NCBI RefSeq assembly: GCF_003569765.1
Contig: NZ_QXMG01000068.1
Coordinates: 1 to 32,019, forward strand
DNA: 32,019 bases
Reading direction: 5' to 3'
From: Caldimonas tepidiphila
GTDB taxonomy: Bacteria > Pseudomonadota > Gammaproteobacteria > Burkholderiales > Burkholderiaceae_C
The notes under the pieces are model-generated. The model was not told where the DNA came from. It saw nothing but the letters and a program-made list of their open reading frames with translations, and ran no database searches. How positions within the stretch are numbered: position 1 is the first letter of the stretch; the number at the start of each line of letters is the position of its first letter. Below, in pieces: positions 10,039 to 32,019 of the stretch. The translations under genes and the position numbers were made by a program.

Positions 10039-10071
10039 AAAGAGAGCGCATCCGACGAAAGCGTTGATGCG

Positions 10072-10272: not shown

Positions 10273-10298
10273 CCAACCGCACGAGGAGACAGCTACCC

Positions 10299-11297: not shown

Positions 11298-11331
11298 GCC
11301 TGCAAACCGCACCCCATACCGAGGAGAACCG

Positions 11332-11601: not shown

Positions 11602-11620
11602 AACCCGAACAGGAGCATCC

Positions 11621-13539: not shown

Positions 13540-13560
13540 GGCCCTGGAAGGAGTCGCGCC

Positions 13561-14625: not shown

Positions 14626-14627
14626 CC

Positions 14628-14990: not shown

Positions 14991-15003
14991 ACCAAGGAGA
15001 CTC

Positions 15004-16448: not shown

Positions 16449-17288
16449 ATGACAAAACACAACCCCGAGATCGGCCGCAGCATCGTCGCGGCCGGCATCC
16501 GCACCAACTTGCACGACCAGGGCGAGGGCCCGCCGCTGCTGATGATCCACGGCTCCGGGCCCGGTGTTTCCGCGTGGGCCAACTGGCGCCTGTCCATCCC
16601 CGTGCTGGCGCAATCCCGCCGCGTCATTGCGCCAGACATGGTGGGCTTTGGCTTCAGCGACCGACCCGCCGGGCAGCGCTACGGCATGGACGAGTGGGTG
16701 CGCCAGGCGGTGGGCGTGCTGGATGAGTTGGACCTGGAGCGCGCCGACGTGGTGGGCAATTCCTTCGGCGGCGCGCTGGCACTGGCGCTGGCCATCCGGC
16801 ATCCGGACCGGGTGCGTCGCCTCGTGCTGATGGGCTCGGTCGGCGTGCCCTTCGAGATCACGCCGGGGCTCGACGCGGTGTGGGGCTACGAGCCCTCGTT
16901 GGAGACCATGCGTCGCCTGCTCGACATCTTCGCCTACGACCGCTCGCTCGCCACTGACGAACTGGCGCGCATGCGCTACGAGGCCTCGATCCGCCCCGGC
17001 TTCCAGGAGTCCTTCGCGGCGATGTTCCCCGCGCCCCGCCAGCGCTGGGTGGACGCGATGTGCAGCGCCGAGGCCGACATCCGGGCGCTGCCGCACGAGA
17101 CGCTGGTGCTGCACGGCCGTGAGGACCAGGTCATTCCGCTGGCGAACTCGCTGACGCTGGCGCAGTGGATTCCGAACAGCCAGCTCCACGTCTTCGGCCA
17201 TTGCGGCCACTGGACGCAGATCGAGCACGCAGGTCGCTTCAACCGGCTGGTGGACGACTTCCTCACGGAGGCGGACACCGCTTCCTGA
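16449..17288 (+). CDS. dmpD: 2-hydroxymuconic semialdehyde hydrolase DmpD
   Basis: A 279-residue alpha/beta hydrolase. The oxyanion-hole motif is HGSGPGVSAWANW, with nucleophile S105 in GNSFGG, D226 in GREDQVIP and H254 in GHCGHW. It cleaves the ring-fission product (best for methylated, ketone-type products) to 2-hydroxypenta-2,4-dienoate and a carboxylic acid. ATG 16449 lies after GGAG. It precedes the semialdehyde dehydrogenase gene, so both branches of the meta pathway are present. Confidence 0.93.
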   Translation: MTKHNPEIGRSIVAAGIRTNLHDQGEGPPLLMIHGSGPGVSAWANWRLSIPVLAQSRRVIAPDMVGFGFSDRPAGQRYGMDEWVRQAVGVLDELDLERADVVGNSFGGALALALAIRHPDRVRRLVLMGSVGVPFEITPGLDAVWGYEPSLETMRRLLDIFAYDRSLATDELARMRYEASIRPGFQESFAAMFPAPRQRWVDAMCSAEADIRALPHETLVLHGREDQVIPLANSLTLAQWIPNSQLHVFGHCGHWTQIEHAGRFNRLVDDFLTEADTAS

Positions 17289-17302: not shown

Positions 17303-18757
17303 GTGAAAGACTTTCTCAATTTCATCGATGGCGAGTTTGTCGCCACCGGCAAGACCTTCGAGAACCGCTCGCCGGCCGACAACCGCGTGCTCGGGCGCGT
17401 CCACGAGGCCGGTCGCACCGAGGTCGAGGCTGCGGTGCGCGCTGCGAAGCAGGCGCTGCGCGGGCCCTGGGGTCGCATGAGCGTCGCCAAGCGCGTCGAA
17501 TTGCTCTACGCCGTGGCCGACGAGATCAACCGACGTTTCGACGACTTCCTGGCTGCCGAGATCGCCGACACCGGCAAGCCGGAGTCGCTGGCCGCGCATA
17601 TCGACATCCCGCGCGGTGCGGCCAACTTCAAGGTGTTCGCCGACATCGTGAAGAACGTGCCGACCGAGAGTTTTGAGATGACCACGCCCGACGGTGGTAC
17701 CGCGGTCAGCTACGCGCTGCGCTCACCGGTCGGGGTGGTGGGTGTGGTGTGCCCCTGGAACCTGCCGCTGCTGCTGATGACGTGGAAGGTGGGCCCGGCG
17801 CTGGCCTGCGGCAACACCGTCGTAGTGAAGCCGTCCGAGGAGACGCCCGCTACCGCCACCCTGCTGGGCGAGGTGATGAAAGCCGTCGGTGTGCCGGACG
17901 GCGTTTACAACGTGGTGCACGGATTCGGACCCGATTCCGCGGGCGCGTTCCTGACGCAACACCCCGACGTGGATGCCATCACCTTCACCGGCGAGACGCG
18001 CACGGGAGAGGCGATCATGGCTGCCGCCGCCAAGGGGGTGCGCCCGGTGAGTTTCGAACTGGGAGGCAAGAACGCCGGCATCGTGTTCGCTGACGCCGAT
18101 TTCGACAAGGCCGTGGCGGGCATCACCCGCAGCGCCTTCGAGAACTGCGGCCAGGTGTGCTTGGGCACCGAGCGCGTCTACGTGCAGCGGCCCATCTTCG
18201 AGCGCTTCGTGCAGGCGCTGAAGGCCAAGGCCGAAGCCCTGAAGATCGGTCCGCCCGAGGAGCCCGGAGTCGGCCTGGGCCCGCTGATCTCGCGCGAGCA
18301 CCAGCAGAAAGTGCTTGGCTACTTCGAGCGCGCGCGCGCCGAGGGTGCCACCGTCGTCACCGGCGGTGGGGTGCCGCCGATGAGTGGCGCCTGGGCCGAG
18401 GGCCACTGGGTGCAGCCGACGATCTGGACCGGCCTGCCCGAGACCTCTGCCCTGGTGCGCGAGGAGATCTTCGGGCCCTGCTGCCACATCGCACCCTTCG
18501 ACACCGTCGATGAAGCGATCGCGCTGGCCAACGACACCGACTACGGCTTGGCCACCACGGTGTGGACCACCGACCTGAGCACCGCGCATCGCTGTGCCCG
18601 CGAGATCGAGGTGGGCTTGTGCTGGATCAACAGCTGGTTCCTGCGTGACCTGCGCACCGCCTTCGGCGGCAGCAAGGCCTCCGGCATCGGCCGTGAGGGT
18701 GGAGTGCATTCGCTCGAGTTCTACACCGAACTGCGCAACGTGATGGTCAAGCTTTAG
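17303..18757 (+). CDS. dmpC: 2-hydroxymuconic semialdehyde dehydrogenase DmpC
   Basis: A 484-residue NAD-dependent aldehyde dehydrogenase. The catalytic pair is E252 (FELGGK) and C286 (GQVCLGTERV); the NAD-binding TFTGETRTGEAI and PWNLPLLLMTWK regions are present. It oxidises 2-hydroxymuconic semialdehyde to 4-oxalocrotonate (2-hydroxymuconate), the start of the oxalocrotonate branch. The start is GTG 17303 (MKDFLNFIDGEFV), which matches the family N-terminus and follows AGAGAGA. Upstream in-frame ATGs would add residues unlike the family. Confidence 0.95.
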   Translation: MKDFLNFIDGEFVATGKTFENRSPADNRVLGRVHEAGRTEVEAAVRAAKQALRGPWGRMSVAKRVELLYAVADEINRRFDDFLAAEIADTGKPESLAAHIDIPRGAANFKVFADIVKNVPTESFEMTTPDGGTAVSYALRSPVGVVGVVCPWNLPLLLMTWKVGPALACGNTVVVKPSEETPATATLLGEVMKAVGVPDGVYNVVHGFGPDSAGAFLTQHPDVDAITFTGETRTGEAIMAAAAKGVRPVSFELGGKNAGIVFADADFDKAVAGITRSAFENCGQVCLGTERVYVQRPIFERFVQALKAKAEALKIGPPEEPGVGLGPLISREHQQKVLGYFERARAEGATVVTGGGVPPMSGAWAEGHWVQPTIWTGLPETSALVREEIFGPCCHIAPFDTVDEAIALANDTDYGLATTVWTTDLSTAHRCAREIEVGLCWINSWFLRDLRTAFGGSKASGIGREGGVHSLEFYTELRNVMVKL

Positions 18758-18791: not shown

Positions 18792-19574
18792 GTGACAGAA
18801 GACAAGATCCAGCAGTACGGCGACGAGCTGTACACCGCGCTCATCGAGCGCCGACCCGTAGCGCCCTTGACCGAGCGCGAGCCCGCCATCACGCTGGACG
18901 ACGCCTACCGCATCCAGCTGCGCATGATCCAGCGCCGCATAGACGCCGGCGAGACGGTGGTCGGCAAGAAGATCGGCGTCACCAGCCAGGTCGTGATGGA
19001 CATGCTCGGCGTCGACCAGCCGGACTTCGGCCAGTTGCTGTCGGGCATGGTGGTGCAGGCGGGCGAGCCCATCCGCGTCGATTCGATGATCGCGCCCAAG
19101 GCCGAGGCCGAGGTCGCCTTCGTGCTCAAGAGCGACCTGCACGGCCCCGGTGTCACCGCCGCCGACGTGCTGCGCGCCACCGCCTTCGTGATGCCGTGCT
19201 TCGAGATCGTCGACTCGCGCATCCGCGACTGGAAGATCAGGATCCAGGACACCGTCGCCGACAACGCCTCGTGCGGCGTGCTGGTGCTCGGCGGCGTGCG
19301 CAGGGATCCGCGTGAACTCGATCTCGCACTGGCCGGGATGGTGCTTGAGAAGAACGGCGAGGTCGTCAGCACCTCCACCGGGGCCGCGGTGCAGGGCTCG
19401 CCCGTCAACGCCGTGGCGTGGCTGGCCAACACGCTTGGCCGTCTCGGCATCGCGCTGAAGGCGGGCGAGGTGATCCTGTCGGGCTCGCAATCGCCGCTCG
19501 TGCCGGTCAAGCCCGGTGACAGCCTGCACTGCAGCGTCGGAGGCCTGGGAAGCGCCGGCGTCCGCTTCATCTGA
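18792..19574 (+). CDS. dmpE: 2-oxopent-4-enoate hydratase DmpE
   Basis: A 260-residue MhpD/DmpE-family hydratase. It adds water to 2-hydroxypenta-2,4-dienoate, giving 4-hydroxy-2-oxovalerate. Family segments are GKKIGVTSQVVMDMLGVDQP, KAEAEVAFVLK (acidic metal ligands), CFEIVDSRI and VADNASCGVLVLG. The start is GTG 18792 behind GGAGAG. It is a paralogue of the next gene (dmpH), with which it forms a complex in studied systems, and the two genes are 15 bases apart. Confidence 0.92.
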   Translation: MTEDKIQQYGDELYTALIERRPVAPLTEREPAITLDDAYRIQLRMIQRRIDAGETVVGKKIGVTSQVVMDMLGVDQPDFGQLLSGMVVQAGEPIRVDSMIAPKAEAEVAFVLKSDLHGPGVTAADVLRATAFVMPCFEIVDSRIRDWKIRIQDTVADNASCGVLVLGGVRRDPRELDLALAGMVLEKNGEVVSTSTGAAVQGSPVNAVAWLANTLGRLGIALKAGEVILSGSQSPLVPVKPGDSLHCSVGGLGSAGVRFI

Positions 19575-19589: not shown

Positions 19590-20378
19590 ATGAACCTCAC
19601 ACCGCAGACGATCGCCGGCCTCGCCGAGCACCTGGAGTCCGCCGAACTGCTCGCGCGCGATGTCACCAAGATCACCGATGAGCACCCCGGCATGGACTGG
19701 GACGACGCCTACGCCATCCAGGACGAGATCCGCCGCCGAAAGGAAGCGCACGGCCAACGCACCGTCGGGATGAAGGCAGGGCTGACCTCCTTCGCGAAGA
19801 TGAAGCAGATGGGGGTCGACACACCCGTCTTCGGCTTTCTCAGCGACTACATGAGCCGACCCGAAGGTGGCGAGATCAGGACGAGCGAACTGATCCACCC
19901 CAAGGTCGAGGCCGAGATCTGTGTCGTCACCAAGGCAGCGCTGAAGGGGCCCGGCTGCCACCTCGCGCAGGTGATGGCGGCGATCGATTTCGTCGTGCCG
20001 GCGGTCGAGATCATCGACAGCCGCTACCGGGACTTCAAGTTCGACCTCAAGAGCGTGGTGGCCGACAACACCTCGGCTGCGCGCTTCGTCGTCGGCTCTC
20101 GCATGCGTGCGCTCGACGAACTCGACCTGCGCACGCTGGGCGTGGTACTCGAGAAGAACGGACAGATCGCGGCGATGGCGGCGGGCGCCGCCGTGCTTGG
20201 CCATCCCCTGACGGCCGTGGTGATGCTTGCCAACCACCTTGGCGCACGCGGCCAGGAACTGCCTGCAGGTAGTTTCGTCATGACCGGCGGCGTGACCGAA
20301 GCGATTGCCGTGCAGGCGGGAGACCACGTGAACGTGCGCTTCCAGGACCTGGGGTCCGTCTCGATGCGCTTCGTCTGA
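19590..20378 (+). CDS. dmpH: 4-oxalocrotonate decarboxylase DmpH
   Basis: A 262-residue member of the same fold as DmpE. It decarboxylates 2-oxo-3-hexenedioate to 2-hydroxypenta-2,4-dienoate. [31 protein letters not shown] and [18 protein letters not shown] are typical of DmpH/XylI. Being the second of the two paralogous genes and carrying the AKMKQMGVD motif favours decarboxylase over hydratase. The assignment of which paralogue is which is by recall. Confidence 0.88.
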
Positions 20379-20419: not shown

Positions 20420-21337
20420 ATGAAGAAGATCAAGTGCGCCCTCATCGGCCCCGGCAACATCGGCACCGACCTGCTGGCCAAGCTCAAGCGCAGCCCCGTG
20501 CTGGAGCCGGTGTGGATGGTGGGCATCGACCCCGAGTCCGACGGCCTCAAGCGTGCACGCGAGATGGGCCTCAAGACCACCGCCGAGGGGGTCGACGGCC
20601 TGCTGCCGCACGTTCTGGCCGACGGGGTGCAGATCGCGTTCGACGCCACCAGCGCCTATGTGCATGCCGAGAACTCGCGCAAACTCAACGAGCTCAGCGT
20701 GCTGATGATCGACCTGACACCGGCCGCGGTCGGCCCCTACTGCGTGCCGCCGGTGAACCTGCGTGAGCACGTGGGCCGCCGTGAGATGAACGTCAACATG
20801 GTCACCTGCGGGGGCCAGGCCACCATCCCGATGGTGGCGGCAGTCAGCCGCGTGCAGGCGGTCGAGTACGCCGAGATCGTCGCCACGGTGTCCAGCCGCT
20901 CGGCCGGCCCCGGCACACGCAAGAACATCGACGAATTCACCCGCACGACCGCCGGCGCCATCGAGAGGGTGGGCGGAGCGCGCAAGGGCAAGGCCATCAT
21001 CGTCATCAACCCTGCCGACCCGCCGCTGATCATGCGCGACACCATCCACTGCCTGACGGTGGACACGCCCCGTGCCGCCGAGATCGAGGAATCAGTGCAC
21101 GCCATGATCCAGGAGGTGCGCAAGTACGTGCCCGGCTACCGGTTAGTGAACGGCCCGGTGTTCGACGGCCACCGCGTGTCGATCTACATGGAGGTTGAAG
21201 GCCTGGGCGACTACCTGCCCAAGTACGCCGGCAACCTCGACATCATGACCGCCGCCGCAGCCCGCACTGCGGAGATGTTCGCCGAGGAGATCCTCGCCGG
21301 CCGGCTGTCACTCGAACCCGCCGCGCTGGCGGCCTGA
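20420..21337 (+). CDS. dmpF: Acetaldehyde dehydrogenase (acylating) DmpF
   Basis: A 305-residue acylating aldehyde dehydrogenase. It turns acetaldehyde channelled from DmpG into acetyl-CoA using NAD and CoA. Rossmann motif GPGNIGTD is at 10-17, and the catalytic Cys is C130 in [13 protein letters not shown] 20420 has AAGGA upstream. It is eleven bases from dmpG, its obligate complex partner, which is the conserved F-G order. Confidence 0.95.
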
Positions 21338-21348
21338 AGGAGAACCCG

Positions 21349-22449
21349 ATGAAGAGCCAACTCGAAGGACGGCAGGTCACGCTGCACGACATGACCCTGC
21401 GCGACGGTATGCATCCGAAGCGCCACCAGATGACGCTAGCGCAGATGAGGGATGTCGCCACCGCGCTCGACCGCGCCGGAGTGCCCCTGATCGAAGTCAC
21501 CCACGGCGACGGTCTGGGTGGCAGTTCGGTCAACTACGGCTTCCCGGCCCATACGGACGAGGAATACCTGTCCGCGGTGATCCCCCTGATGCAGCGGGCG
21601 AAGGTCTCGGCGCTGCTGCTTCCCGGCATCGGCACTGTGGATCACCTGCGCATGGCCCACGGCCTGGGTGTGAGCACCATCCGGGTGGCGACGCACTGCA
21701 CTGAAGCCGATGTGTCCGAACAGCACATCACCTTCGCGCGCAAGCTTGGCATGGACACCGTCGGCTTCCTGATGATGGCACACATGAACAGCCCCGAGGG
21801 CCTGGTCAAGCAGGCGCTGCTAATGGAAGCCTATGGCGCTAACTGCGTCTACGTGACCGACTCCGCGGGCTACCTGCTGCCCGACGACGTGAAGGAGCGT
21901 GTCGCCGCGGTGCGTGCCGCGCTGAAGCCCTCGACCGAGGTCGGCTTCCATGGGCACCACAACCTGGCGATGGGCGTGGCCAACAGCATCGCCGCCATCG
22001 AAGCCGGTGCCAACCGCATCGATGCTGCCTCTGCCGGGCTCGGCGCCGGTGCGGGCAACACGCCGATGGAAGTGCTGGTGGCGGTGTGTGACCGCATGGG
22101 CATCGAGACTGGCGTGGACGTCTGGAAGATCCAGGACGTCGCCGACGACATCGTGGTGCCGCTGATGGACTATCCGATTCGCATCGACCGCGACGCGCTG
22201 ACCCTTGGCTATGCAGGTGTGTACGGCTCCTTCCTGCTGTTTGCCAAGCGCGCCGAGGAGAAGTACGGCGTTCCCGCGCGGGACCTGCTCGTGGAACTGG
22301 GTCGGCGCGGCATGGTCGGCGGGCAGGAAGACATGATCGAGGACACCGCCCTGACGTTGGCCCGTGAGCGCCAGCGCGCCGCCGCCGAGCAGGGCCAGCC
22401 CCGGACCGGGTCCAAGCCGCAACGCTCCCTGGTCGACACACGAGCCTGA
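21349..22449 (+). CDS. dmpG: 4-hydroxy-2-oxovalerate aldolase DmpG
   Basis: A 366-residue HMGL-like TIM-barrel aldolase. It splits 4-hydroxy-2-oxovalerate into pyruvate and acetaldehyde. [10 protein letters not shown] has catalytic R18 and metal ligand D19, and [14 protein letters not shown] carries the metal His pair. A DmpG communication domain follows the barrel. The C-terminus extends about 20 residues ([14 protein letters not shown]) past the roughly 345 usual for the family; this may be natural variation. Eighty-three bases then precede the sulfatase gene. Confidence 0.95.
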
Positions 22450-22532
22450 ACGCCGGGCACGCCGACGCGCGCCCTCCACCCTAGCGGCGCGACGGGTGAC
22501 ACAACCCGCGCGCCCTGACGAGGAGACAATGC

Positions 22533-24302
22533 ATGAACCGACCCTTCCCGGGCCGCCTGCTGGCGGCCGCCGCCGCCGCATGGCTGGTGGCCTGCAGCAG
22601 CACCGCAACCACGGATCGATCCGAGGCCGCAGCGCCGAAACGGGCGCCCAATTTCCTGCTCATCCTGGCTGACGACCTCGGCTACTCCGACATCGGCGCC
22701 TACGGCGGCGAGATCTCCACGCCGAACCTGGATAGGCTGGCGCGCACCGGCACGCAACTCACGTCGTTCTACGCCTCGCCGTTCTGCTCGCCGACCCGAG
22801 CGATGCTGATGTCCGGCTCAGACAACCACCTGATCGGCTACGGTGACATGGCCGAGCTGATGCTCGATCAGCAGCGCGGCAAGCCTGGCTACGAGGGCCA
22901 TCTCAACGATCGCGTCGTCACGCTGCCGGAGGTGCTGAAACAGTCGGGCTACCGGACGGTCATGGCGGGCAAGTGGCACCTCGGCAACACGGAAGCCCTG
23001 AGCCCGGCGGCACGCGGCTTCGACCGCTCGTATGCGATGACCATGGGCGGGGCCAGTCACTTCGGCGACCAGCTCGGCATCATCACCGCCGACCCCGACA
23101 AGCCGCCCAAGGCGATGTACCGGGAAAACGGCAAGGCCGTCGACATTCCCCGCGACGGCTTCTATTCGTCCGACGCGTTCGCCAGCCGCCTGATCCAGTA
23201 TCTGGAGGAGACCCGGGGCGATGGCAGCCGCCCCTTCTTCGCATACCTGGCGTTCACCGCGCCGCACTGGCCGCTGCATGCGCACGACGAGGACATCGCC
23301 CGTTATGACGGCAAGTACGACGCGGGCTACGACGCCATCCGTGCGCAGCGACTGGAGCGCATGAAGCAGTTGGGGCTGGTGCCCACGGACGTGGAGGCCT
23401 ACGCTGGACATCCGCGCTGGAAGCGCTGGGAGCAGCTCACGCCGGCCGAGCGCCGCAGCGAATCGCGCCGGATGGCCGTCTACGCCGCGATGGTCGACAA
23501 CATGGACCGCAACATCGGCCGCGTGCTGCAGTACCTGCAGGAGCGTGGCGACCTTGACAACACGGTAGTCGTGTTCATGTCCGACAACGGGGCCGACGGG
23601 AATTCGGTGTTCGACCTGGCGCGCACCCGCGACTGGATCCGCAAGGACATGGACAACAGCACCGGCAACATCGGTCGCCCCGGTTCTTTCATCGAGTACG
23701 GTCCTGGTTGGGCACAGGTGGGCTCGACGCCGCTGAACCTGTTCAAGTCTTTCATGCACGAAGGCGGAATCTCGGTGCCGGCCATCGTATGGGGCCCGGC
23801 CGCAGGCATCAGCGGGCAACGTCGCACGCAGGTGGCCCACATCATGGACATTGCGCCCACGTTCTACGAACTCGCCGGCGCCCGTCATCCCGGGCCGGTT
23901 GGGGAGGGCCGCACGGTGCTGCCAGTGAAGGGGCGCTCGCTCGTCGCTTTCCTGCAAGGTCGACAGGAGTCGGTGTACGGCCCGGACGACGCGATCGGCT
24001 GGGAGCTCGGCGGGCGCAAGGCCCTGCGCAAGGGCGACTGGAAGATTGTCCAGTCCAACCGGCCGTGGGGCACCGGGGAATGGGAACTCTACAACGTGGC
24101 GCGCGACCGTACCGAGAGCCGTAACCTGGCGATCGAGCGACCAGACAAGCTGGCCGAACTCGTGCAGGCCTGGAAGCAGTACGTCGCGGACAACGGCGTG
24201 CTGGAGATCGACGGCCTGTCGGATCGACCCGGCTACAGCAACGCGGCGAAGTACTACGACGACCTGGCGCATGAAGCGGTCGAAGCGCCGAGGCGCAAAT
24301 GA
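22533..24302 (+). CDS. Arylsulfatase (PAS/AtsA-like) with lipoprotein signal
   Basis: A 589-residue type I sulfatase. It hydrolyses aryl sulfate esters using a formylglycine made from Cys85 in the signature CSPTR (85-89). The metal and catalytic residues are all present: D47, D48, R89, K147 and H149 (AGKWHLG), H245 (APHWPL), D351 and N352 (MSDNGADG), and K405. Most sit 34 residues later than their counterparts in Pseudomonas aeruginosa arylsulfatase PAS as I remember it, and long stretches such as KPGYEGHLNDRVVTLPEVL are PAS-like. The extra N-terminus is a lipoprotein signal, LLAAAAAAWLVAC with lipobox Cys21, so it is likely anchored and periplasmic, whereas PAS is not exported. ATG 22533 follows GAGGAGA. 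The stop overlaps the FGE-like gene (ATGA). Expected products include phenols feeding the same operon, but the substrate is inference. Confidence 0.93.
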   Translation: MNRPFPGRLLAAAAAAWLVACSSTATTDRSEAAAPKRAPNFLLILADDLGYSDIGAYGGEISTPNLDRLARTGTQLTSFYASPFCSPTRAMLMSGSDNHLIGYGDMAELMLDQQRGKPGYEGHLNDRVVTLPEVLKQSGYRTVMAGKWHLGNTEALSPAARGFDRSYAMTMGGASHFGDQLGIITADPDKPPKAMYRENGKAVDIPRDGFYSSDAFASRLIQYLEETRGDGSRPFFAYLAFTAPHWPLHAHDEDIARYDGKYDAGYDAIRAQRLERMKQLGLVPTDVEAYAGHPRWKRWEQLTPAERRSESRRMAVYAAMVDNMDRNIGRVLQYLQERGDLDNTVVVFMSDNGADGNSVFDLARTRDWIRKDMDNSTGNIGRPGSFIEYGPGWAQVGSTPLNLFKSFMHEGGISVPAIVWGPAAGISGQRRTQVAHIMDIAPTFYELAGARHPGPVGEGRTVLPVKGRSLVAFLQGRQESVYGPDDAIGWELGGRKALRKGDWKIVQSNRPWGTGEWELYNVARDRTESRNLAIERPDKLAELVQAWKQYVADNGVLEIDGLSDRPGYSNAAKYYDDLAHEAVEAPRRK

Positions 24303-25399
24303 AGTCGCGAGACGAGGGACTGACTGGTAGGCGGCCAGGGCAGCGGGCATGGCTTGCCGCGATGCTAGCCGTCGCGGTGGCGGCGTTCGGCTTCGGCGCG
24401 TTCTTCGCTGCGCCCGCGACACCCGCTGTTGGAGCATCGAGCAAGGCCCCGGCGGGTCTTCTCTGCTCGGCGTACGCCGGCATCCCGGCCGACGGCGAGC
24501 TTGCCGGGATGGTGCATATCCCGGCCGGGCGATTCATGATGGGGTCGGAACGGCACTACGACGAGGAGCTCACACCGCACGAGGTGGAGGTGGACGCCTT
24601 CTGGATGGATCGGCACGACGTGACCAACGCGCAATTCTCCCGCTTCGTGCAGGCCACCGGGTATCGCACCCTGGCCGAGCGAGGGCGCGACGCTAAGCGG
24701 TATCGCGAGCTGCCCTCTGAGTTGCACGCCCCAGGGTCCGTGGTCTTTGTGCAGGGACCGGGCGGCCAAGCGGGCGTGTGGCGATTCGTCGAGGGGGCTG
24801 ATTGGCGTCACCCGGAAGGCCCGGGCAGCAGCATTGCCGAACGTGCCAACCATCCAGTGGTCCACATCGCCTACGAGGATGCGCAGGCCTATGCCCGCTG
24901 GCTGGGACGAGAGCTTCCCACCGAAGCCCAGTGGGAATACGCCGCTCGGGGCGGCCTTGACGGCGCTCCGTATGTGTGGGGTCACGAGTTCAGACCGCAA
25001 GGTCAGATCATGGCCAATACGTGGCAAGGCCGGTTTCCGCAGCATGACGCTGGCGAAGACGGGTATGCAGGCACCTCGCCCGTTGGCTGCTTCGCCAGCA
25101 ACGGCTGGGGCCTCTATGACATGGCCGGCAACGTCTGGCAGTGGACCGCCAGCTGGTACAGCCCCCGGCATCCCGCCGGGGCGCAACGCAATCCTGCAGG
25201 GCCTGCAGAGGACGACAGCGCCGATCCAGCTCAGCCTGGGGTAAAAGCCCGAGTGATCAAGGGAGGATCTCACCTGTGTGCGCCGAACTACTGCATGCGC
25301 TATCGACCCTCGGCGCGGCAGCCGCGTGACATCGCCTTCGGCACCTCTCACCTTGGATTTCGCACCGTGATCAACCCAGAACCAACCAGGAGGAATTGA
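24299..25399 (+). CDS. Formylglycine-generating enzyme-like (SUMF1/FGE) sulfatase-activating protein, membrane/periplasmic
   Basis: A 366-residue FGE-sulfatase domain protein. It is expected to oxidise the sulfatase Cys85 to formylglycine. Key traits are MVHIPAGRFMMGSERH, FWMDRHDVTNAQFSRFVQAT, LPTEAQWEYAARGG, GLYDMAGNVWQWT and the catalytic pair C327 and C332 in GGSHLCAPNYCMRYR. The Cys-x4-Cys pair matches the copper-binding cysteines of oxygen-dependent FGE, so this is probably a true FGE rather than a Cys-less relative. Residues 17-39 (AWLAAMLAVAVAAFGFGAFF and following) form a hydrophobic anchor or signal, so the domain likely faces the periplasm like its sulfatase partner. Its start overlaps the sulfatase stop (ATGA), and its stop overlaps the start of dmpI (TGATG). 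Confidence 0.9.
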   Translation: MKSRDEGLTGRRPGQRAWLAAMLAVAVAAFGFGAFFAAPATPAVGASSKAPAGLLCSAYAGIPADGELAGMVHIPAGRFMMGSERHYDEELTPHEVEVDAFWMDRHDVTNAQFSRFVQATGYRTLAERGRDAKRYRELPSELHAPGSVVFVQGPGGQAGVWRFVEGADWRHPEGPGSSIAERANHPVVHIAYEDAQAYARWLGRELPTEAQWEYAARGGLDGAPYVWGHEFRPQGQIMANTWQGRFPQHDAGEDGYAGTSPVGCFASNGWGLYDMAGNVWQWTASWYSPRHPAGAQRNPAGPAEDDSADPAQPGVKARVIKGGSHLCAPNYCMRYRPSARQPRDIAFGTSHLGFRTVINPEPTRRN

Positions 25400-25590
25400 T
25401 GCCCTTCGCGCAGATTTACATGATTGAAGGCCGTACTGCCGAGCAGAAAAAAGCAGTGATTGAGAAGGTGACCCAGGCTCTCGTTGAGGCCGTGGGTGCG
25501 CCCAAGGAGAACGTGCGCGTCTGGATCCATGACGTTCCAAAAGAGAATTGGGGCATCGCCGGAGTCAGTGCCAAGGAACTGGGCCGTTGA
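25399..25590 (+). CDS. dmpI: 4-oxalocrotonate tautomerase DmpI
   Basis: A 63-residue tautomerase that ketonises 2-hydroxymuconate to 2-oxo-3-hexenedioate for DmpH. After Met removal the catalytic Pro1 is exposed, and R11 and R39 are conserved. The usual Phe50 is Trp, a conservative change. GGAGG sits 5-7 bases upstream and the start overlaps the FGE-like gene stop, so this is the last gene of the long operon. It is separated from dmpG by the sulfatase/FGE pair. Confidence 0.92.
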   Translation: MPFAQIYMIEGRTAEQKKAVIEKVTQALVEAVGAPKENVRVWIHDVPKENWGIAGVSAKELGR

Positions 25591-25840
25591 GGGATCGCGG
25601 TTGGGATCGACATGAACTCACCGCAAGACATGAGCGGCACGGCTGGCGCAACTTCCGTCGTTTCCGTGGTTTCTTCGACATTCCAGAGCGCGAGGTGGAT
25701 GACTTGCTTGAGGACCTGGGGGGCGGATGTGCTGCCTCCAAGAGTTTTTGTGGTCGGGGCGAACATGAAACTGCTCGGTGCATTGGAGGCCTACTGGCGA
25801 GCAGCCACTCGGCTCACCACGGTCTGTATTCCCTCGACTC
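25591..25840. other. Intergenic stretch between dmpI and the IS3 end
   Basis: No convincing gene. Short open frames on both strands lack family resemblance. Bases at about 25652-25679 show a 9-base quasi-repeat (TTCCGTCGT, TTCCGTGGT, then TTCTTCGA). No terminator for the long operon was found here. Confidence 0.4.
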
Positions 25841-26028
25841 TGAACCGCCCCGGGTTTCGAGGAGGCTCAACACTCTGAGAGGATTGAGCCATGAGCAAGT
25901 CGAACAAGTTCTCGCCCGAGGTGCGTGAGCGCGCGGTGAGGATGGTGCAGGAGCACCGAGGGGAGTACCCGTCGCTGTGGGCGGCCATCGAGTCCATCGC
26001 GCCCACCTCAGAGGACGGCTGGGGCTGA
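25841..26028 (+). mobile_element. IS3-family element, left end with truncated orfA
   Basis: The terminal inverted repeat begins at 25841 (TGAACCGCCCCGGGTTTCGA). After 50 bases comes orfA at ATG 25891, behind GAGAGGA, encoding [20 protein letters not shown] and then [18 protein letters not shown], a typical IS3 orfA helix-turn-helix start. Similarity ends at about 26004, and unrelated codons lead to the stop at 26026-26028. The matching right end of the same type of element is at 31206, in the opposite orientation. Confidence 0.8.
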
Positions 26029-26351
26029 GAAGTGGCTCCCGTGTCCGGGGCTTGTTGATTCGGGAGCAGCGCAGCATCAGCAGCAGGCAAGGCGGAGCGA
26101 AGCTTCTCGATTTCCCCTTCGAGGCGGCCACCGCTGGACATCCAAATCGGGTTGTATTCGGGGCCGATATCACGCTGTCGTTGCTTGGGCAGCACGTGCT
26201 GAGCGAGGGCGAGTGCCTTGTTCTTTGTCAACTTGCTGCCGTTGCGCTCCGCAGCCAACATGAGCATGGCCACTTCGCGGATCAGCAGATCCATTTCTTC
26301 GGGGCTCCAGCGCAAACGCGGGGACTTGGTGGAATCCTGGGGTTTGGGCAT
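26005..26351 (-). pseudogene. Unknown accessory protein, C-terminus replaced by IS3 antisense DNA
   Basis: Read from ATG 26351, about 115 residues look like a genuine soluble protein: MPKPQDSTKSPRLRWSPEEM, DLLIREVAMLMLAAERNGSK, then a helical region and a Pro/Gln-rich tail. From about 26004 downward the frame continues to 25791 but is only the antisense of the IS3 fragment, so the original C-terminus is lost. The LRWSPEEMDLLIREV start faintly resembles a Myb/SANT-type helix, but I do not recognise the family. An AT-rich promoter-like stretch lies upstream (26352-26395). It may come from the plasmid or integrative element that also supplied the relaxase. Confidence 0.45.
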
Positions 26352-26446
26352 GTGGGATATCTTTAACTTAGGGCTGTACCGATACTGTATCCTAATCGGG
26401 TTGGGGCAAAGCCAGTGCCTATTCCATGCAATGGTGCGGTTAAAAG

Positions 26447-26475
26447 TTCCGCCTGTCCAAGGAGGTCAGGCGGAA
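26447..26475. repeat. Inverted repeat, 9-bp stem
   Basis: TTCCGCCTG (26447-26455) and CAGGCGGAA (26467-26475) are perfect complements around an 11-base loop. On the minus strand CTTTT follows, so a weak minus-strand terminator is possible. It could also be the end of a lost insertion element. Confidence 0.55.
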
Positions 26476-26494
26476 GCCTAGACCCGGGCTTACG

Positions 26495-26539
26495 CTTGGC
26501 GGCGGAGCTGGGTGCAGGCCAGTGAATGCACCCGCCAAG
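26495..26539. repeat. Compound inverted repeat, 6-bp plus 7-bp stems
   Basis: The outer arms are CTTGGC (26495-26500) and GCCAAG (26534-26539). The inner arms are GGGTGCA (26510-26516) and TGCACCC (26527-26533), with a 10-base loop and a one-sided 9-base bulge. No T-run follows, so it does not look like a simple terminator. A protein-binding or single-strand folding site is possible. Confidence 0.5.
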
Positions 26540-26831
26540 TAATTCAGCATACATGTGGACTTGATCCAATCCCCCGGTATCAGCCCCCTCAAAGGCCGCA
26601 ACCTTTCTCTGGCCCCCTCGGATTTCAGGTGAAGCAATTGTTTACTAGAGGGGAAAAGGGAAAGCCATGAGAGTGGTTATACTTTTTATTTTTCATGTAT
26701 GTTGATGCAAACATCTTATTTGCATATCGCAAAAAAATTTAGCGTTTATTTATCTCATCTACGCCCCTACCTTCATATGAACACCTCCTTACCATGTCGC
26801 TTTTTTTCAATAGCGGCAAAAGGAGATTTAC

Positions 26832-26966
26832 ATGGATATCGAAGATTTTCTAAAGCACAGAGGCATCTCCCCTGCTTCACTCCAGCTCGATCTGGGAAGG
26901 AAAGGCCTAGAGCGTGTTATGCACTTTCTCCCAAGGCCCAGAACGTCACGGCCTTGGGTAGCATGA
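26832..26966 (+). pseudogene. Short unknown gene, 5' part only, cut by IS5 remnant
   Basis: AAAAGGAG precedes ATG 26832 with good spacing. The product begins MDIEDFLKHRGISPASLQLD and continues LGRKGLERVMHFLPRP. From roughly 26920 the DNA belongs to an IS5-family remnant on the other strand, and the frame ends at 26964-26966, giving 44 residues. The good ribosome site and AT-rich upstream region suggest it was once a real gene. The family is not recognised. Confidence 0.4.
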
Positions 26967-27180
26967 GCATGGCGAAGACGACGAAATGCAGCGCTGCGAG
27001 CACCTAAGGCATGCGCTCGAAGTCGCGCGACAGGCGCCGGAATCGCGCCAGCCAAGCAAAGCTGCGCTCCACCACCCAGCGCCGCGGCAGCAGCGCGAAC
27101 CCCTTCTTCGCCTCGGGCAGCCTGACCACCTGCAACTCGATCCCCGACGCCTGGGCGTCCTCGCGGGCTTGCTCGCCGCG
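26920..27180 (-). mobile_element. IS5-family transposase, C-terminal remnant with internal stop
   Basis: On the minus strand the frame reads [46 protein letters not shown], then TAG at 27004-27006, then VLAALHFVVFAMLMLP. The [12 protein letters not shown] block is the conserved DDE-domain end of IS5-type transposases. The N-terminal part is absent, replaced by a tandem repeat block at 27181, and the internal stop makes the fragment inactive. Confidence 0.8.
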
Positions 27181-27386
27181 GCCGGACCCAAAAGGTGGGT
27201 CCATTGGAGAGTTGTGAAAATTTTCGGTCGAGCGAATCCCCGAAGTACCCCCTTTGGGGCCCCATGCAGGGATCCAGACCGCAGCCGGATCCAAAAGGTG
27301 GGTCCATCGGGGAGTTGTGAAAACTTTTCGGCCGATGGAGTCCCCGAAGTACCCACCTTTGGGGCCCCATGCTGGGATCCAGGCCG
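27181..27386. repeat. Two-unit tandem repeat of 103 bp with nested palindromes
   Basis: Unit 1 (27181-27283) and unit 2 (27284-27386) both begin GCCGGA, share CCAAAAGGTGGGTCCAT and GAGTTGTGAAAA, and end around GGGGCCCCATGC and GGGATCCAG. In unit 2, GGTGGGT (27297-27303) pairs with ACCCACC (27351-27357), and TCCATCGG (27303-27310) pairs with CCGATGGA (27332-27339), so each unit can fold into a long hairpin. The unit looks like a REP- or MITE-type element. Open frames through it are by-products. Confidence 0.75.
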
Positions 27387-27429
27387 CGGCCAGACCCTAA
27401 TGGTTGGCTAGGTCCGCCGCTGCCCCGGC

Positions 27430-27485
27430 AGCATCAACTACTGAAAGTGCTGAACCGGCTACGGCAGCGGTCAACAATGTCTATC
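27430..27485. repeat. 56-bp diverged repeat, copy 1
   Basis: Matches 29065-29120 at about 45 of 56 positions by eye, starting AGCAT and ending CAACAATGTCTATC. It has a nine-base internal period (CTGAAAGTG, CTGAACCGG, CTACGGCAG). If translated on the + strand it reads STTESAEPATAAVNNVY. It lies in a 170-base gap with no supported gene. Confidence 0.55.
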
Positions 27486-27555
27486 GTATGCGCTCAATAG
27501 ACCACGTCCTTGGGGACCGGCGCAGCTTGTGCTGTCTGCGCTGTAGAGGGGGCGG

Positions 27556-28079
27556 TCAGAGGGTGGCGGCGCCGATGCGCCAGGGCAGCAGTGCTTCGTA
27601 GTCGTCGGCGGTGGAGGCCTGGGGCAGCTCGGTCAGCTGAACCGCAGCGCTTGCGGCCAGCAGCACCCCAGCGCCGGGCGTTGGGGTGCGGAGTTCATTT
27701 TTCCCCCGCACCCGTTTGGGTGCTGGTGAGGTCGATGGCTCGGGCTTGCGCAGCGCGCCCTGCTGCGCCTCGTGCCACCAGCAAAACGAGAAGGCGCACC
27801 ACACCAGGGCCCAGTGTCGGCGGATGGCCCGATCGCTGCGCACCATGAAGTCCGCCCAGCCGAGCTCGTGCTTCACGCGCTTGTAGTGCTCTTCGATCCA
27901 GACCCTCAAGCCATAGAGCCACACCAGATGCGGCAGCGGCGCCTTGTCCAGCGGCAGGTTGGTGCTCAAGTACCAGGTCGAGAGCGGCGGCAGCGTGGCC
28001 GGATCGGTGGTGGCCACGATGGCGCGCAAGTAGCCCGGGCGCTGCCGGCGTCGCGCTGGCTCGTATCTTGAGCCAAGAT
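27556..28079 (-). mobile_element. IS701-like transposase, C-terminal fragment
   Basis: On the minus strand an open frame reaches its natural stop at 27556-27558. It contains RAIVATTDPATLPPLSTWYL, LYGLRVWIEEHYKRVKHELG and RSDRAIRRHWALVWCAFSFCWW, the C-terminal DDE block of IS701/IS4-type transposases with its conserved catalytic Glu in EEHYKRVK. The N-terminal two thirds is missing, and similarity ends at about 28079 where the HAD-type gene's DNA begins. It is inactive as it stands. Confidence 0.8.
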
Positions 28080-28134
28080 GCCGTCATGCTTCGGTTCCGA
28101 GCGAGGCATTTCGTTTCCGTATCCGACTAATACC

Positions 28135-28569
28135 ATGATTCTGTTCCTGGATTTCGACGGCGTCTTGCACAAGTACGGCTGCAAGCCAGCCGACCTTTTC
28201 GGCCGGCTGCCACTGCTTGAGGCTTGGCTCGGGCAGCAAGCAGACGTGAACGTGGTGGTGTCGTCGACGTGGCGTCTCACGAGGACGCTGGACGAGATAC
28301 GGAGCTTCTTCTCGCCGGCGATTCAGCCCCGGATCGTCGGCGTCACGCCGAGGATCAATGGCGCCTTGCCTGAACGCTTCCCGCGGGAGGCTGAGGTGGC
28401 CATGTGGTTGCGCGGCAGTGACCAGCCATGGCAGCCGTGGGTAGCGCTGGATGACCACGCCTGGCTATTCCGGCCGTTCAACGACCGCGTGGTGTTGTGC
28501 GATCCCTACGTCGGTTTAACCGAGGATGATCTGGTGAGGTTGTCAGCGGTTCTCGGTGGCCGAGCCTGA
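28135..28569 (+). CDS. HAD-fold hydrolase (HAD domain of Swiss Army Knife RNA-repair type)
   Basis: A 144-residue stand-alone HAD-like domain. Motif I is LDFDGVL with D6 and D8, motif II is VVSSTWR (S43/S44), and the acidic motif is VALDDH (D106, D107). This short cap-less version resembles the HAD domain found in Swiss Army Knife RNA-repair proteins and in many small stand-alone proteins. Phosphatase activity is likely, but the substrate is unknown. ATG 28135 is chosen because motif I normally begins at once; an in-frame ATG at 28078 would add 19 residues and lies at the junction with the IS701 fragment. The ribosome site is weak. The gene looks intact between mobile-element debris. Confidence 0.75.
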   Translation: MILFLDFDGVLHKYGCKPADLFGRLPLLEAWLGQQADVNVVVSSTWRLTRTLDEIRSFFSPAIQPRIVGVTPRINGALPERFPREAEVAMWLRGSDQPWQPWVALDDHAWLFRPFNDRVVLCDPYVGLTEDDLVRLSAVLGGRA

Positions 28570-28689
28570 AGTCCGGCGTCGCGGTGCCCAAAAGAACCCG
28601 TCATGCTGACGGTTCCAGAGGGTATCCGACCGATACAGTGGCCGGGGTCTGTTTGCGGACGCTGAGAGTGGGCTGGACCGGCCTCTGTT

Positions 28690-28740
28690 TAGCTATCTGG
28701 CGACAAATCCGGTCCCAACTTAGCTGCTGAGCGACAAATC
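28690..28740. repeat. Short direct repeats, 20 bp, 31-bp period
   Basis: TAGCTATCTGGCGACAAATC (28690-28709) and TAGCTGCTGAGCGACAAATC (28721-28740) agree at 15 of 20 positions. A third partial copy, TAGCTGATCAGCGA, starts at 28762. Such arrays occur at the ends of some insertion sequences such as the IS21 type, but no transposase of that kind is visible here. Confidence 0.45.
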
Positions 28741-29064
28741 AGCCGGCAGGCCTCCCTTCGTTAGCTGATCAGCGATGCTCTGCCGACGGACATCAAGCGC
28801 TAGTTGAGCATGCGATCTCGGATCGCGGCCTTGAGGTGCGAGTTGACTAGCCGCACTCAGCACCGACCGTCCAGGGCAAATGCCCCTCGGTGGCTTGCCA
28901 CATGAGGCAGCTGAGCTTCATTTTTAATTAGGAGCGCTTTTGAATTGCACTTGGGTGTGCTACGTAACAGCACAACAGCCCACAAAGAACTATTGGATGG
29001 CCAACATGGCACATTGGTTGACCAAGTTAGCGTGCTCAAAGGTTAGAAATAATCATTGGGTGGC

Positions 29065-29120
29065 AGCATTGGCCGCTGAAAGTGCGGAATCGGCCACGGC
29101 AAAGGCCAACAATGTCTATC
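29065..29120. repeat. 56-bp diverged repeat, copy 2
   Basis: Partner of 27430-27485. It has the same nine-base internal period (CTGAAAGTG, CGGAATCGG, CCACGGCAA) and ends CCAACAATGTCTATC. The + strand reading is AAESAESATAKANNVYPLAS followed by a stop at 29141-29143. Several differences from copy 1 fall at third positions of this frame, which hints that it may once have been coding. Confidence 0.55.
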
Positions 29121-29421
29121 CACTGGCCAGCATTGGCAAATAGTCGGCAGTTTTAGCCGTTTTTGCGACCTTGCTGCTTGGCTGTGAGGCGGGCAGGACT
29201 GTCCAGATACAGAGTGGCGTCGAGCATTTCGATTTGTGAGCCGATCCGTCGAGTTTTTGCGCTGATACGTACAACTTTGAGGCCAACGCGTTAAATTTGC
29301 ACATCAGTTCGTTGTGATTGAAAATTCAATTGAAAAGCAGTGCTGTCTTTGCTCCATGCCCGCCAATTCGGCACCAGCTGCCGCCGCCGAGCTTCTCCCG
29401 TGCAACCGGGCGCCAAAGGTG

Positions 29422-29445
29422 AAAAAAACAGGAGGCTACCCTCCT
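29422..29445 (-). terminator. Rho-independent terminator, minus strand
   Basis: On the minus strand AGGAGG (29445-29440), a 4-base loop, then CCTCCT (29435-29430), followed after one base by seven T residues (29428-29422). The loop contains the TAG stop codon of the small minus-strand gene ending at 29436, so it appears to be that gene's terminator. Confidence 0.65.
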
Positions 29446-29630
29446 TGGTCGTCGGCGTGATGTATCTCGAAGGCCTCTGAAATAACCCCTGCGGCCAGGT
29501 ACTTCCTCTGTATCACCCGGCGGCACCGGCACATGAGGTTACTGCCTAGAAATGAAGCCCCGTTCACGTAGGTCTCTTTTTCTAGGGCAACGGATCCCTC
29601 CAGCCGCCAAAATACATCCCACATCGTCAT
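29436..29630 (-). CDS. Small hypothetical protein
   Basis: A 64-residue frame from ATG 29630: MTMWDVFWRLEGSVALEKET, then YVNGASFLGSNLMCRCRRVI, then QRKYLAAGVISEAFEIHHAD. The composition looks protein-like, and a rho-independent terminator sits exactly on the stop codon, which is the main support. No ribosome site is clear. A TATACGAT-like promoter element lies just upstream on the minus strand (about 29643-29650). It is divergent from the relaxase gene, so an accessory mobilisation or regulatory role is conceivable, but the family is not recognised. Confidence 0.4.
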   Translation of the reverse strand: MTMWDVFWRLEGSVALEKETYVNGASFLGSNLMCRCRRVIQRKYLAAGVISEAFEIHHADDQGG

Positions 29631-29769
29631 CGATATCTGCTATCGTATATGTAGTCATCGCGGACGGAGTGTCTCGGGAGTATCTTCGAGCGCGAAGGGC
29701 TCACCACCGGGGGGGTAGGTGCATCGATATCGCAGGGCCATCGAAAACGGAGGCCCATCGTGGACGGAG
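29628..29769. promoter_or_regulatory. Repeat-rich region upstream of the relaxase gene, candidate oriT or control region
   Basis: Direct repeats: CATCGATATC at 29628-29637 and 29722-29731, and CATCG(C/T)GGACGGAG at 29656-29669 and 29756-29769, the latter exactly 100 bases apart. Further CATCG units continue into the relaxase gene. Relaxase genes often lie beside their nick site, so an oriT is possible. No nic sequence of a known type was recognised. Confidence 0.35.
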
Positions 29770-30962
29770 GCATGACATCGGGGACGAAGATCCCATCGGA
29801 AGCTAAGGCTCTCATCGGCAGCGCAGCAGCGGCGGGAGTTGCCCTGGCAACGACCTCTTCGCCAACGGAGGGGGGCTCGTCATCGAAGGGGGGTGGTTCG
29901 CCATCGGGGAGTTCGGTGGGCTCGGGGCAGTTCGTGCACGAGGAGTGCTATGCGCGCCGCGGCAGCCGCAATGCGCGCGGCCGCAAGCCCAGCGCCCGCG
30001 ACATCATCGGCGAGCTCCTGCGCCTGGGGCCGCGATACGTGCAGCATCTGGTGGACCAGGGCATCGAGCCCCAGCCGCCGAGGCACCTGCATGGCGTGCA
30101 CCCCGGGGATCTCATCGCATGGTGGGAGGAGCTCGAGCGGCAGGCCCGGGAGGTGGTCGAGGAGCGGGTGTACGGCGACGAGGTGCGGCTGTATCGCCAG
30201 CGTGAAACCACGACGATTTTGGGCGTGGCGGTGGCCAGCTACCCGGGTCCGCCCTCCGAGCAGGATCCGCTGTACGTGCGCTGGCGCGAGCTGACTGTGG
30301 CCTGGGCCGCGGAGCACTACGGCGAGCGGCTCGCCGGCGTGTACGAGCACACCGACGAGCGCCACGGGCACCTCCACGTGGTTTTTGCGGACCAGGGGCG
30401 GCAGGTCAAGCACAGCCTAGCGGGGCATGGCGCCGCGTTGAGGGCGCTGCAAAATGGCTCAGTCAAGGCCGACGCCAAGCTGCGGCTCATTGAGGCGAAT
30501 AAGGCGCTGCAGGACGAGTACCACGAGGCCGTGGGGCGCCATGTGGGTCTGGGGCGCGTGGGGCCGGCGCCAAGTCAGCGCCGCAGCCGCTCGGTACAGC
30601 TGCGCCAGCGCCTCAAGGCCGAGCTTGAGCAAACAGCCGGCAGCCTCAATGCCATGCAGGAGGCCATGCGCCGCGCGATCGAGGCCGTCGACGAGCGGGA
30701 GCGCCGCGCGCAGCAAGCCGAGGCCCGAGCGGAAAGCGCAGAGACACGGGCGCAGCAGGCCGAGGAGCGGGCCAGGGCCGCGGAAGCGCGCGCGGAGGTG
30801 GCTCACGCGGCAGCCAAGCGCTGGCGCATGGCCATGGAGTGGACTAGCCAGCAGATTGCCGAGATGCGTAGCGCATCCAAAGAAGTCTTGGATCCAGCTG
30901 CGCACGAGCTGCTGTTTGCGCGCTTCAGCCCGACGCCTGCTAAGTCCGAGCCCAAGAATTGA
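29760..30962 (+). CDS. MobV-like relaxase / mobilisation protein
   Basis: A 400-residue protein. The central domain contains YEHTDERHGHLHVVFAD, which fits the His-x-Asp...His-x-His metal motif of MobV/Pre relaxases. The helix WRELTVAWAAEHYGE before it and the EYHEAVGRHVGLGRVG segment after it have the same layout as Mob/Pre proteins. The usual N-terminal Asn/Arg motif is not obvious, so it is a divergent member. Residues about 285-365 form a long Ala/Glu/Arg coiled coil. The start is GTG 29760, with GGAGG at 29749-29753 (6-base spacing); the ATG at 29772 has its purine site too close. A terminator follows at 31009. It would nick DNA at an oriT for transfer. No replication or coupling gene is seen. 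Confidence 0.65.
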   Translation: MDGGMTSGTKIPSEAKALIGSAAAAGVALATTSSPTEGGSSSKGGGSPSGSSVGSGQFVHEECYARRGSRNARGRKPSARDIIGELLRLGPRYVQHLVDQGIEPQPPRHLHGVHPGDLIAWWEELERQAREVVEERVYGDEVRLYRQRETTTILGVAVASYPGPPSEQDPLYVRWRELTVAWAAEHYGERLAGVYEHTDERHGHLHVVFADQGRQVKHSLAGHGAALRALQNGSVKADAKLRLIEANKALQDEYHEAVGRHVGLGRVGPAPSQRRSRSVQLRQRLKAELEQTAGSLNAMQEAMRRAIEAVDERERRAQQAEARAESAETRAQQAEERARAAEARAEVAHAAAKRWRMAMEWTSQQIAEMRSASKEVLDPAAHELLFARFSPTPAKSEPKN

Positions 30963-31008
30963 ACCGCGCATGTTCAGGGTGCTGGGTCATGGCGCCTGAC
31001 TTTTCCAC

Positions 31009-31030
31009 TTTTTCGCATCGTTGCGAAAAA
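31009..31030. terminator. Bidirectional rho-independent terminator after the relaxase gene
   Basis: TTTTTCGCA (31009-31017) and TGCGAAAAA (31022-31030) form a perfect 9-bp stem with a TCGT loop. Outer arms CCTGA (30996-31000) and TCAGG (31031-31035) extend it. It lies 46 bases after the relaxase stop. Bases 30963-31205 otherwise hold no supported gene. Confidence 0.7.
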
Positions 31031-31205
31031 TCAGGAAAAACCTTAAAAATCAATGATGCGGGCGTCGCGCAGCAGTTCGGGCATCGCTACCGCGTTGGCG
31101 ATAGCCGTGAGCTTGAAGATCTCGATGGCATTGCTCACCAGATTGGGGGCGTGAGGCGGAACGCTTGCGGCAGCAGCACGTGCCGTAGCGCCTGCATGCG
31201 CGTCA

Positions 31206-31974: not shown

Positions 31975-32019
31975 GATCCTCAGCCACGCTCCGGATATGA
32001 CGCTCGCGCATAGGCGAGT

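Follow-up and report, generated by a model that had tools for sequence, protein, structure and literature searches.

Bacterial arylsulfatases are commonly assigned to sulfur scavenging. The Pseudomonas aeruginosa enzyme PAS (AtsA) is cytosolic, repressed by sulfate, and tied to the uptake of sulfate esters, and it supplies sulfate for assimilation. In Klebsiella, a tyramine-regulated operon with atsA and atsB was reportedly described by Murooka in 1990; there AtsB, a radical-SAM enzyme, matures a Ser-type sulfatase, and the ats operon is not a ring-cleavage operon. The dmp and aph operons for the meta-cleavage of phenol have, to our knowledge, been described without a sulfatase or a formylglycine-generating enzyme (FGE). 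Here we analyze a contig of Caldimonas tepidiphila (NZ_QXMG01000068.1; 32,019 bases in full, hereafter the window; part of a 5.47 Mb genome in 178 contigs), in which genes for a PAS-type arylsulfatase and an FGE lie side by side within a dmp-type phenol operon. We regard it as fairly probable that the pair is a self-contained, probably periplasmic desulfation module, which feeds the phenols of aryl sulfates to the pathway of its operon for use as carbon.

The window operon shares with the described dmp/aph operons the regulator, the hydroxylase, the catechol 2,3-dioxygenase, and the lower-pathway genes, as well as their order. We call it dmp-type on the grounds that a hydroxylase, a catechol 2,3-dioxygenase, and lower-pathway enzymes stand behind a DmpR-type activator, the match to the regulator model being below its cut-off. 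The sequence-only reading had placed an intact PAS-like arylsulfatase and an FGE between dmpG and dmpI, and this was confirmed, the coordinates being exact. The junctions that it had reported are also present in the sequence: the sulfatase and FGE genes overlap by ATGA, and the FGE gene and dmpI are joined by TGATG. The gap of 83 bases between dmpG and the sulfatase gene is the widest from dmpC onward.

The sulfatase open reading frame (22533–24302, + strand; 589 aa) is intact and matches PF00884 at 1.5e-57 (195.6 bits vs a curated cut-off of 25). For the comparison of active sites, we used what we take to be the list of catalytic residues of PAS; alignment to 1hdh placed D47, D48, C85, R89, K147, H149, H245, D351, N352, and K405 at these positions, so that the key residues are present at 10/10 expected positions, as had been claimed. 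Cys85 (motif CSPTR) is the formylglycine precursor, and the solved chains carry a modified residue at that position. Among solved structures, the closest matches are entries named arylsulfatase (4cxs, 2e-165; 1hdh, 2.7e-165), and 1HDH is identified as P. aeruginosa PAS in a figure legend of a review (PMC3920027). The window protein thus shares with PAS the family, the Cys-type formylglycine site, and the ten catalytic positions; unlike PAS, it has a lipoprotein-type signal, an FGE of its own, and a location in a phenol operon. Its sequence classifies it as a type I (formylglycine) sulfatase of the PAS type, with aryl sulfate hydrolysis as the predicted activity.

The FGE open reading frame (24299–25399, + strand; 366 aa) is likewise intact. 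It matches PF03781 at 2.4e-79 (267 bits), and its best solved relatives are formylglycine-generating enzymes/SUMF1 (2.6e-76). Both catalytic cysteines of the active-site motif, C327 and C332, are present, as had been noted, and the two-cysteine motif was found in 28/28 FGEs compared (with the near-duplicate L108 left out). By sequence, the protein is a true, aerobic FGE of the SUMF1 type. Assignment as an EgtB, SenA, or GldK homologue was ruled out, as those models match far below their cut-offs.

The N-termini of both proteins are of the export type, a feature absent from the sequence-only reading. The window sulfatase has the lipobox LVAC with Cys21, the sulfatases of Aquabacterium humicola and A. 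terrae have LAAC, and a hydrophobic segment stands ahead of the domain of the window FGE. In the ten-member clade of closest sulfatases described below, the two genes are side by side in all ten members, and the N-terminus is hydrophobic in 10/10 sulfatases and 10/10 FGEs. Sections of a review give a cytosolic location as typical of Cys-type sulfatases (PMC3920027), which these N-termini do not fit. Export of a sulfatase is not new in itself, since most of the carbohydrate sulfatases discussed in parts of another review are periplasmic (PMC10154612). We infer that the window pair is exported and probably periplasmic. Because both proteins look exported, the likely mechanism would be desulfation outside the cytoplasm, which would make a sulfate-ester importer unnecessary. 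A periplasmic enzyme would also suit carbon use, since the charged ester would need no import and the phenol could diffuse in.

To find relatives, the FGE was scanned against genomes, with the best 80 of 512 relatives kept and searched by local tblastn, and neighborhood genes were called with a composition-scored gene caller. The FGE scan and tblastn showed the same pair in the dmp operons of A. humicola, A. terrae, and the MAG SZAS AMP-55. Whole-genome searches with the sulfatase, in tallies that each include the window's own genome, gave matches in 5/60 relatives at 1e-60, 16/399 genomes of the order at 1e-100, 26/399 genomes of the family at 1e-120, and 9/398 genomes of the phylum at 1e-140. 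Within the ten-member clade, six pairs occupy four different slots of dmp operons, and the seventh pair belongs to a catBCA operon. The slot is G|I in the window, H|F in A. humicola (G539) and A. terrae (G620), between dmpH and dmpD-F in G631, and C|E in G544. In SZAS AMP-55 the pair follows dmpH and no dmpI was found; dmpF is split between the end of one contig and the start of another, which is consistent with a single operon. The order in G706 is catB-catC-catA-TctC-SULF-FGE. Outside the clade, a sulfatase-FGE pair adjoins salA-catA on plasmid pND6-1 (L085), and a sulfatase accompanies a hydroxyquinol-type cluster on two Paracoccus plasmids. With regard to the synteny search suggested earlier, the pair does recur in dmp operons of relatives, in slots other than G|I. 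A pairing unique to this contig was ruled out by the same recurrence.

Among the sulfatases compared, the association with dmp genes was confined to the clade. Two or more dmp genes at a distance of up to 6 kb were found for 6/10 clade members (5/9 without the window) and for none of the 44 PAS-like sulfatases of 340–720 bits, the 29 sulfatases under 340 bits, the 13 further places in the same genomes, or the 16 further distant relatives. More distant PAS-like sulfatases were near dmp genes in 0/60 cases examined, and the other sulfatases of the nine clade-bearing genomes in 0/42. Among these 42 same-genome controls, 29 were placed by neighborhood count and the other 13 were checked by position (one of the latter, L208, is a 6.8 kb contig); four sulfatases (two in L170 and one each in L171 and L209) are counted both here and among the 44. 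One of the 42, the window genome's own second sulfatase (L126), is near mhpA/mhpB. The explanation that sulfatases are generally near aromatic genes in these genomes was ruled out by the 0/42 near dmp genes. When any reference ring gene was counted, the proportions were 7/10 in the clade vs 3/44 (L085, L087, and L108), and two of the 16 lower-scoring relatives, three of which score under 340 bits, had one gene each (L255 and L258).

The reference dmp genes were taken from the window, catA2, catB, and catC from L166, salA and catA from L085, the intradiol dioxygenase, maleylacetate reductase, monooxygenase, and pca genes from L087, and mhpA/B from L126; the dmp-only counts are free of self-reference except for the window. 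Duplicates (L005, L007, and L009) and short match pieces (L088–L107, L127–L160, and L178–L186) were dropped. From the 80 loci of the FGE scan, only L005–L010 entered the count; L011–L084 were screened by tblastn only, which showed no dmp genes beyond weak aldehyde-dehydrogenase (dmpC, 33–42%) or DmpR-type matches.

The same association was seen at the level of genomes. The hydroxylase gene dmpN was found in 7/9 genomes with a clade sulfatase vs 62/399 in the same family draw (P 4.5e-5), and in 6/8 when the window was left out (P 2.3e-4). Counted by genus, the figures were 6/7 vs 34/141 (P 8e-4), or 5/6 without the window's own genus (P 2.8e-3). There was no excess in genomes with only a 38–51% sulfatase relative (2/17 vs 2.6 expected). 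Conversely, 55 of the 62 dmpN genomes in the family draw gave no clade sulfatase in the family search at 1e-120, and neither a sulfatase nor an FGE match was found in 12 comparator dmp loci chosen from among them (L230–L241, two of them from the window's genus), of which L235, L236, and L239 cover the lower operon incompletely.

These counts bear on the possibility that the enzyme serves sulfur scavenging, i.e. that it supplies sulfate for assimilation and only happens to be encoded in the operon. Whatever the role of the enzyme, the cell could use the sulfate set free, and the expression of the P. aeruginosa arylsulfatase is shut off by sulfate, sulfite, or cysteine, as stated in passages of a review (PMC3920027). 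Two observations stand against this. The pair turns up repeatedly in dmp and cat operons, in genomes whose other sulfatases lie away from dmp genes, and no ABC genes for sulfate esters or sulfonates were found among the named genes of the operon (some flanking reading frames match no family). A further argument comes from a PAS-like set of another family (f55; L189 twice, L191, L192, L193, and L194), in which an FGE lies within 1.5 kb in 0/6 cases and 5/6 members are without an export-type N-terminus, the exception (L193) scoring 1.7. This set is the most scavenging-like: L189 adjoins two ABC-permease genes, as expected for a scavenging system, and has neither such an N-terminus nor an adjacent FGE. 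We consider scavenging as the purpose of the window pair unlikely. The earlier proposal of a unit leading from aryl sulfates to central metabolism is supported in part, on the side of gene context, by the recurrence in dmp slots and catBCA and by the distance of other sulfatases from dmp genes.

A different substrate class, such as the sulfate of a phenolic acid or a steroid or another sulfate, would make the dmp operon only an inducible home. The clade members L164 (porin and SBF symporter neighbors) and L006 (SBF symporter and IclR-type regulator neighbors) have no reference ring-cleavage genes nearby, and their bile-acid-type (SBF) symporters may take up sulfated organic anions. PAS-like relatives also occur in many other contexts. 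As 6/10 clade members have phenol-pathway genes around them and one has catechol genes, we judge this alternative to be improbable, somewhat more so than scavenging.

In a sulfatase tree of 54 rows (rows over 700 aa cut to the sulfatase part by motif), the ten members formed one clade (100/99), with a subclade of the window, the two Aquabacterium, and G631 (100/100). The dmp label, set against all other rows, required three changes, a number that 0/500 shuffles reached. All three are forced by well-supported branches, and so the link to dmp is clustered, yet has been gained or lost repeatedly. Another alternative is a chance or selfish insertion, in which the pair would have hitch-hiked into a mobile catabolic operon to which it is functionally unlinked. 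The slot varies between operons, none of the eight same-genus genomes searched has such a sulfatase at 1e-60, and the right flank of the window is patchy in composition, with short plasmid- and IS-like matches. Intact frames and residues, tight junctions, and a repeated association that is not seen for more distant relatives argue otherwise, and we consider insertion without function very unlikely.

Returning to the desulfation module for carbon use, several points weigh against it. Three clade members (L164, L167, and L006) have no reference ring-catabolism genes within 6 kb; for L167 a contig end leaves 210 bases on one side, and this sulfatase is near a BKACE-TctC-monooxygenase cluster, the monooxygenase being of the aromatic-ring-hydroxylase type. 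Two of the five plasmid relatives opened (L086 and L109) have no ring-cleavage genes. The flank is shorter than 6 kb on one side in 2/10 clade members (L165 and L167), 6/44, and 12/29 of the groups compared, the source loci match their own reference genes by construction, aromatic genes outside the reference set are missed, and two Aquabacterium of one genus are counted apart in the genome-level dmpN test. The only criteria for export were hydrophobicity and the lipobox, and N-termini of the export type also occur beyond the clade: an FGE lies within 1.5 kb of 19/44 sulfatases there, and 14 of these 19 FGEs score at least 1.7, the adjacent FGEs of pND6-1, the two Paracoccus plasmids, L123, and L124 being below this score. 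The FGE tree, which is weaker, does not recover the sulfatase clade: the FGEs of G544, G706, and G456 group with other FGEs (97/98), and those of Aquabacterium and G631 stand together with the window excluded (95/89), so at times the two genes have moved separately. A terminator-like site (23670–23684) lies within the sulfatase gene, and sigma-54-like sites in the window (39 vs 42 expected from shuffles) are not above chance. Finally, a PAS-like sequence does not fix the substrate.

Since the pair lies inside the operon, its expression would be expected when the DmpR-type regulator senses phenols, and the phenol that it releases could reinforce this expression. The scans of 21300–26400 for promoters and terminators are compatible with a candidate transcript that would run through the pair. 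Phenol control, with the sulfatase supplying the inducer as the sequence-only reading proposed, is likewise an inference. No sigma-70-like promoter was found there, which says little as only 0.7 were expected by chance. Terminator-like sites, by a consensus scan only, numbered six vs 2.0 expected, and one of them, a hairpin with a T-rich tail (25719–25739, + strand), follows dmpI.

In the mechanism that we propose, the sulfatase would be made with its lipoprotein-type signal and exported unfolded by Sec, and the exported or membrane-anchored FGE would oxidize Cys85 to formylglycine beyond the inner membrane. The mature sulfatase, probably tethered in the periplasm, would split aryl sulfates, of the class of phenyl, cresyl, or catechol sulfate, into sulfate and a phenol. 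This phenol, which is uncharged, could cross the inner membrane unaided and enter the pathway of the operon, in which phenol hydroxylase and catechol 2,3-dioxygenase would act first and the dmpC-I enzymes would then yield acetyl-CoA and pyruvate.

Phenyl and cresyl sulfates are excreted by mammals. The genome context suggests a carbon role for the pair, with such esters fed straight into ring cleavage, and the presence of the pair in the dmp operons of A. humicola and A. terrae makes the physiological question testable. If the location is as proposed, a dedicated FGE with an export signal would place the formation of formylglycine in the bacterial periplasm. A wider proposal is that a mobile, self-maturing periplasmic aryl-desulfation module is an unrecognized peripheral part of aromatic catabolism, slotted repeatedly into phenol, catechol, and related operons. 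Controlled by phenol, with positive feedback, the module would open sulfated phenols such as p-cresyl or phenyl sulfate to use as carbon, and its sulfatase would mature outside the cytoplasm, comparable to the animal endoplasmic reticulum. We see the chances of this proposal as evenly balanced.

Among the known systems, the Klebsiella ats operon is alike in that an arylsulfatase is controlled by an aromatic compound as well as by sulfur. The arylsulfatase of P. putida F1 (Pput_2406) was raised 11-fold on benzoate despite sulfate, and its authors propose access to sulfated aromatics; the passages concerned report on protein levels alone and say nothing of a ring-cleavage operon around the gene (PMC3827995). 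We take this as an independent hint of a carbon role. Another is an arylsulfatase of Caenibius tardaugens that is up in ‘Chol’-grown cells, for which bile acid desulfation is suggested in the passage concerned (PMC12882949). Plasmid pND6-1 also has a sulfatase with an export-type N-terminus and an FGE beside salicylate/catechol genes, and differs in that the FGE is without such an N-terminus, the sulfatase is outside the clade (~46% identity), and the pathway is of the ortho type. The view in the sequence-only reading that no dmp-type operon is known with this pair agrees with our survey, in which no description of a sulfatase in a dmp operon was found in the open-access literature (surveyed in part, subscription journals being mostly outside), the nearest being the related proposal for P. 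putida F1. Each part has been known before; what looks new is how the parts are arranged, that the arrangement recurs, and that both N-termini are of the export type.

The genes of the operon are all on the + strand. The multicomponent phenol hydroxylase dmpKLMNOP and a dmpQ-type ferredoxin (10015–14990; the names are ones that we presume from position and sequence) have the order conserved in related operons, and dmpL matched no NCBIfam model. They are followed by catechol 2,3-dioxygenase (dmpB, 14968–15951; TIGR03211, 441.4 bits vs a cut-off of 320.2), an HbpS-like small protein (16055–16417; PF03928, 6e-34), and a dmpD-type alpha/beta hydrolase (16449–17288; HsaD and BphD models, below cut-off). 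The lower pathway comprises 2-hydroxymuconic semialdehyde dehydrogenase (dmpC, 17303–18757; TIGR03216, 897.4 bits vs 693.25), 2-oxopent-4-enoate hydratase (dmpE, 18792–19574; TIGR03220, 451.8 vs 408.8), 2-oxo-3-hexenedioate decarboxylase (dmpH, 19590–20378; TIGR03218, 472.6 vs 350.55), acetylating acetaldehyde dehydrogenase (dmpF, 20420–21337; TIGR03215, 473.5 vs 282.25), and 4-hydroxy-2-oxovalerate aldolase (dmpG, 21349–22449; TIGR03217, 565.9 vs 286). The last gene (25399–25590) encodes a 4-oxalocrotonate tautomerase (TIGR00013, 83.5 vs 56.9), which we call dmpI for its position, as it is below the cut-off of the narrower DmpI model NF041920. Curated NCBIfam cut-offs are thus exceeded by dmpC, E, H, F, and G, by the tautomerase family, and by catechol 2,3-dioxygenase.

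Divergent from the operon, on the − strand, are the DmpR/MobR-type sigma-54 activator (8082–9791; NF041906 MobR, 547.7 bits, below the cut-off of 999) and a GntR-type regulator (7345–8079; CsiR and PhnR models, both below cut-off), which is presumably comparable to AphS. Upstream, boxB and boxA for benzoyl-CoA epoxidase (952–3618) are both over their cut-offs, so that two aromatic routes are adjacent. To the right of the operon, 26001–32019 looks like a mobile or mosaic region: its GC content is patchy (0.54–0.69), an HAD_SAK_2 protein is encoded, and ~170 bases are up to 99% identical to plasmid sequences (megablast, short matches only), under an IS3 transposase in one record.

The dmp operon of G544 also has genes for a Phenol_MetA_deg protein (L168:6121–7014) and a methyl-accepting chemotaxis-like protein (L168:14595–16016), both models being below cut-off. 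Genes for TctC-type solute receptors recur by sulfatases or inside these aromatic operons (L166, L167, L168, and L126), and these receptors may bind an aromatic or sulfated ligand. The second sulfatase mentioned above (L126:3473–4795, − strand; genome G000, contig C43, L126:652–15393) is Cys-type and signal-less and is accompanied by TctC receptor and SulP permease genes. Next to it, in divergent orientation, are a LysR-type gene and a meta-cleavage operon of the mhp (3-hydroxyphenylpropionate) type. In other genomes, six loci related to it have TctC, SulP, or LysR neighbors in part and no mhpA/mhpB (L229 has an mhpD-like match, 39%). In L113, and also in L114 and L115, a PAS-like sulfatase-FGE pair lies near genes for MoaF, an aldehyde dehydrogenase, a class III aminotransferase, and an amino-acid permease, the neighbor families having been checked on L113 only; this arrangement recalls the tyramine-regulated ats system of Klebsiella.

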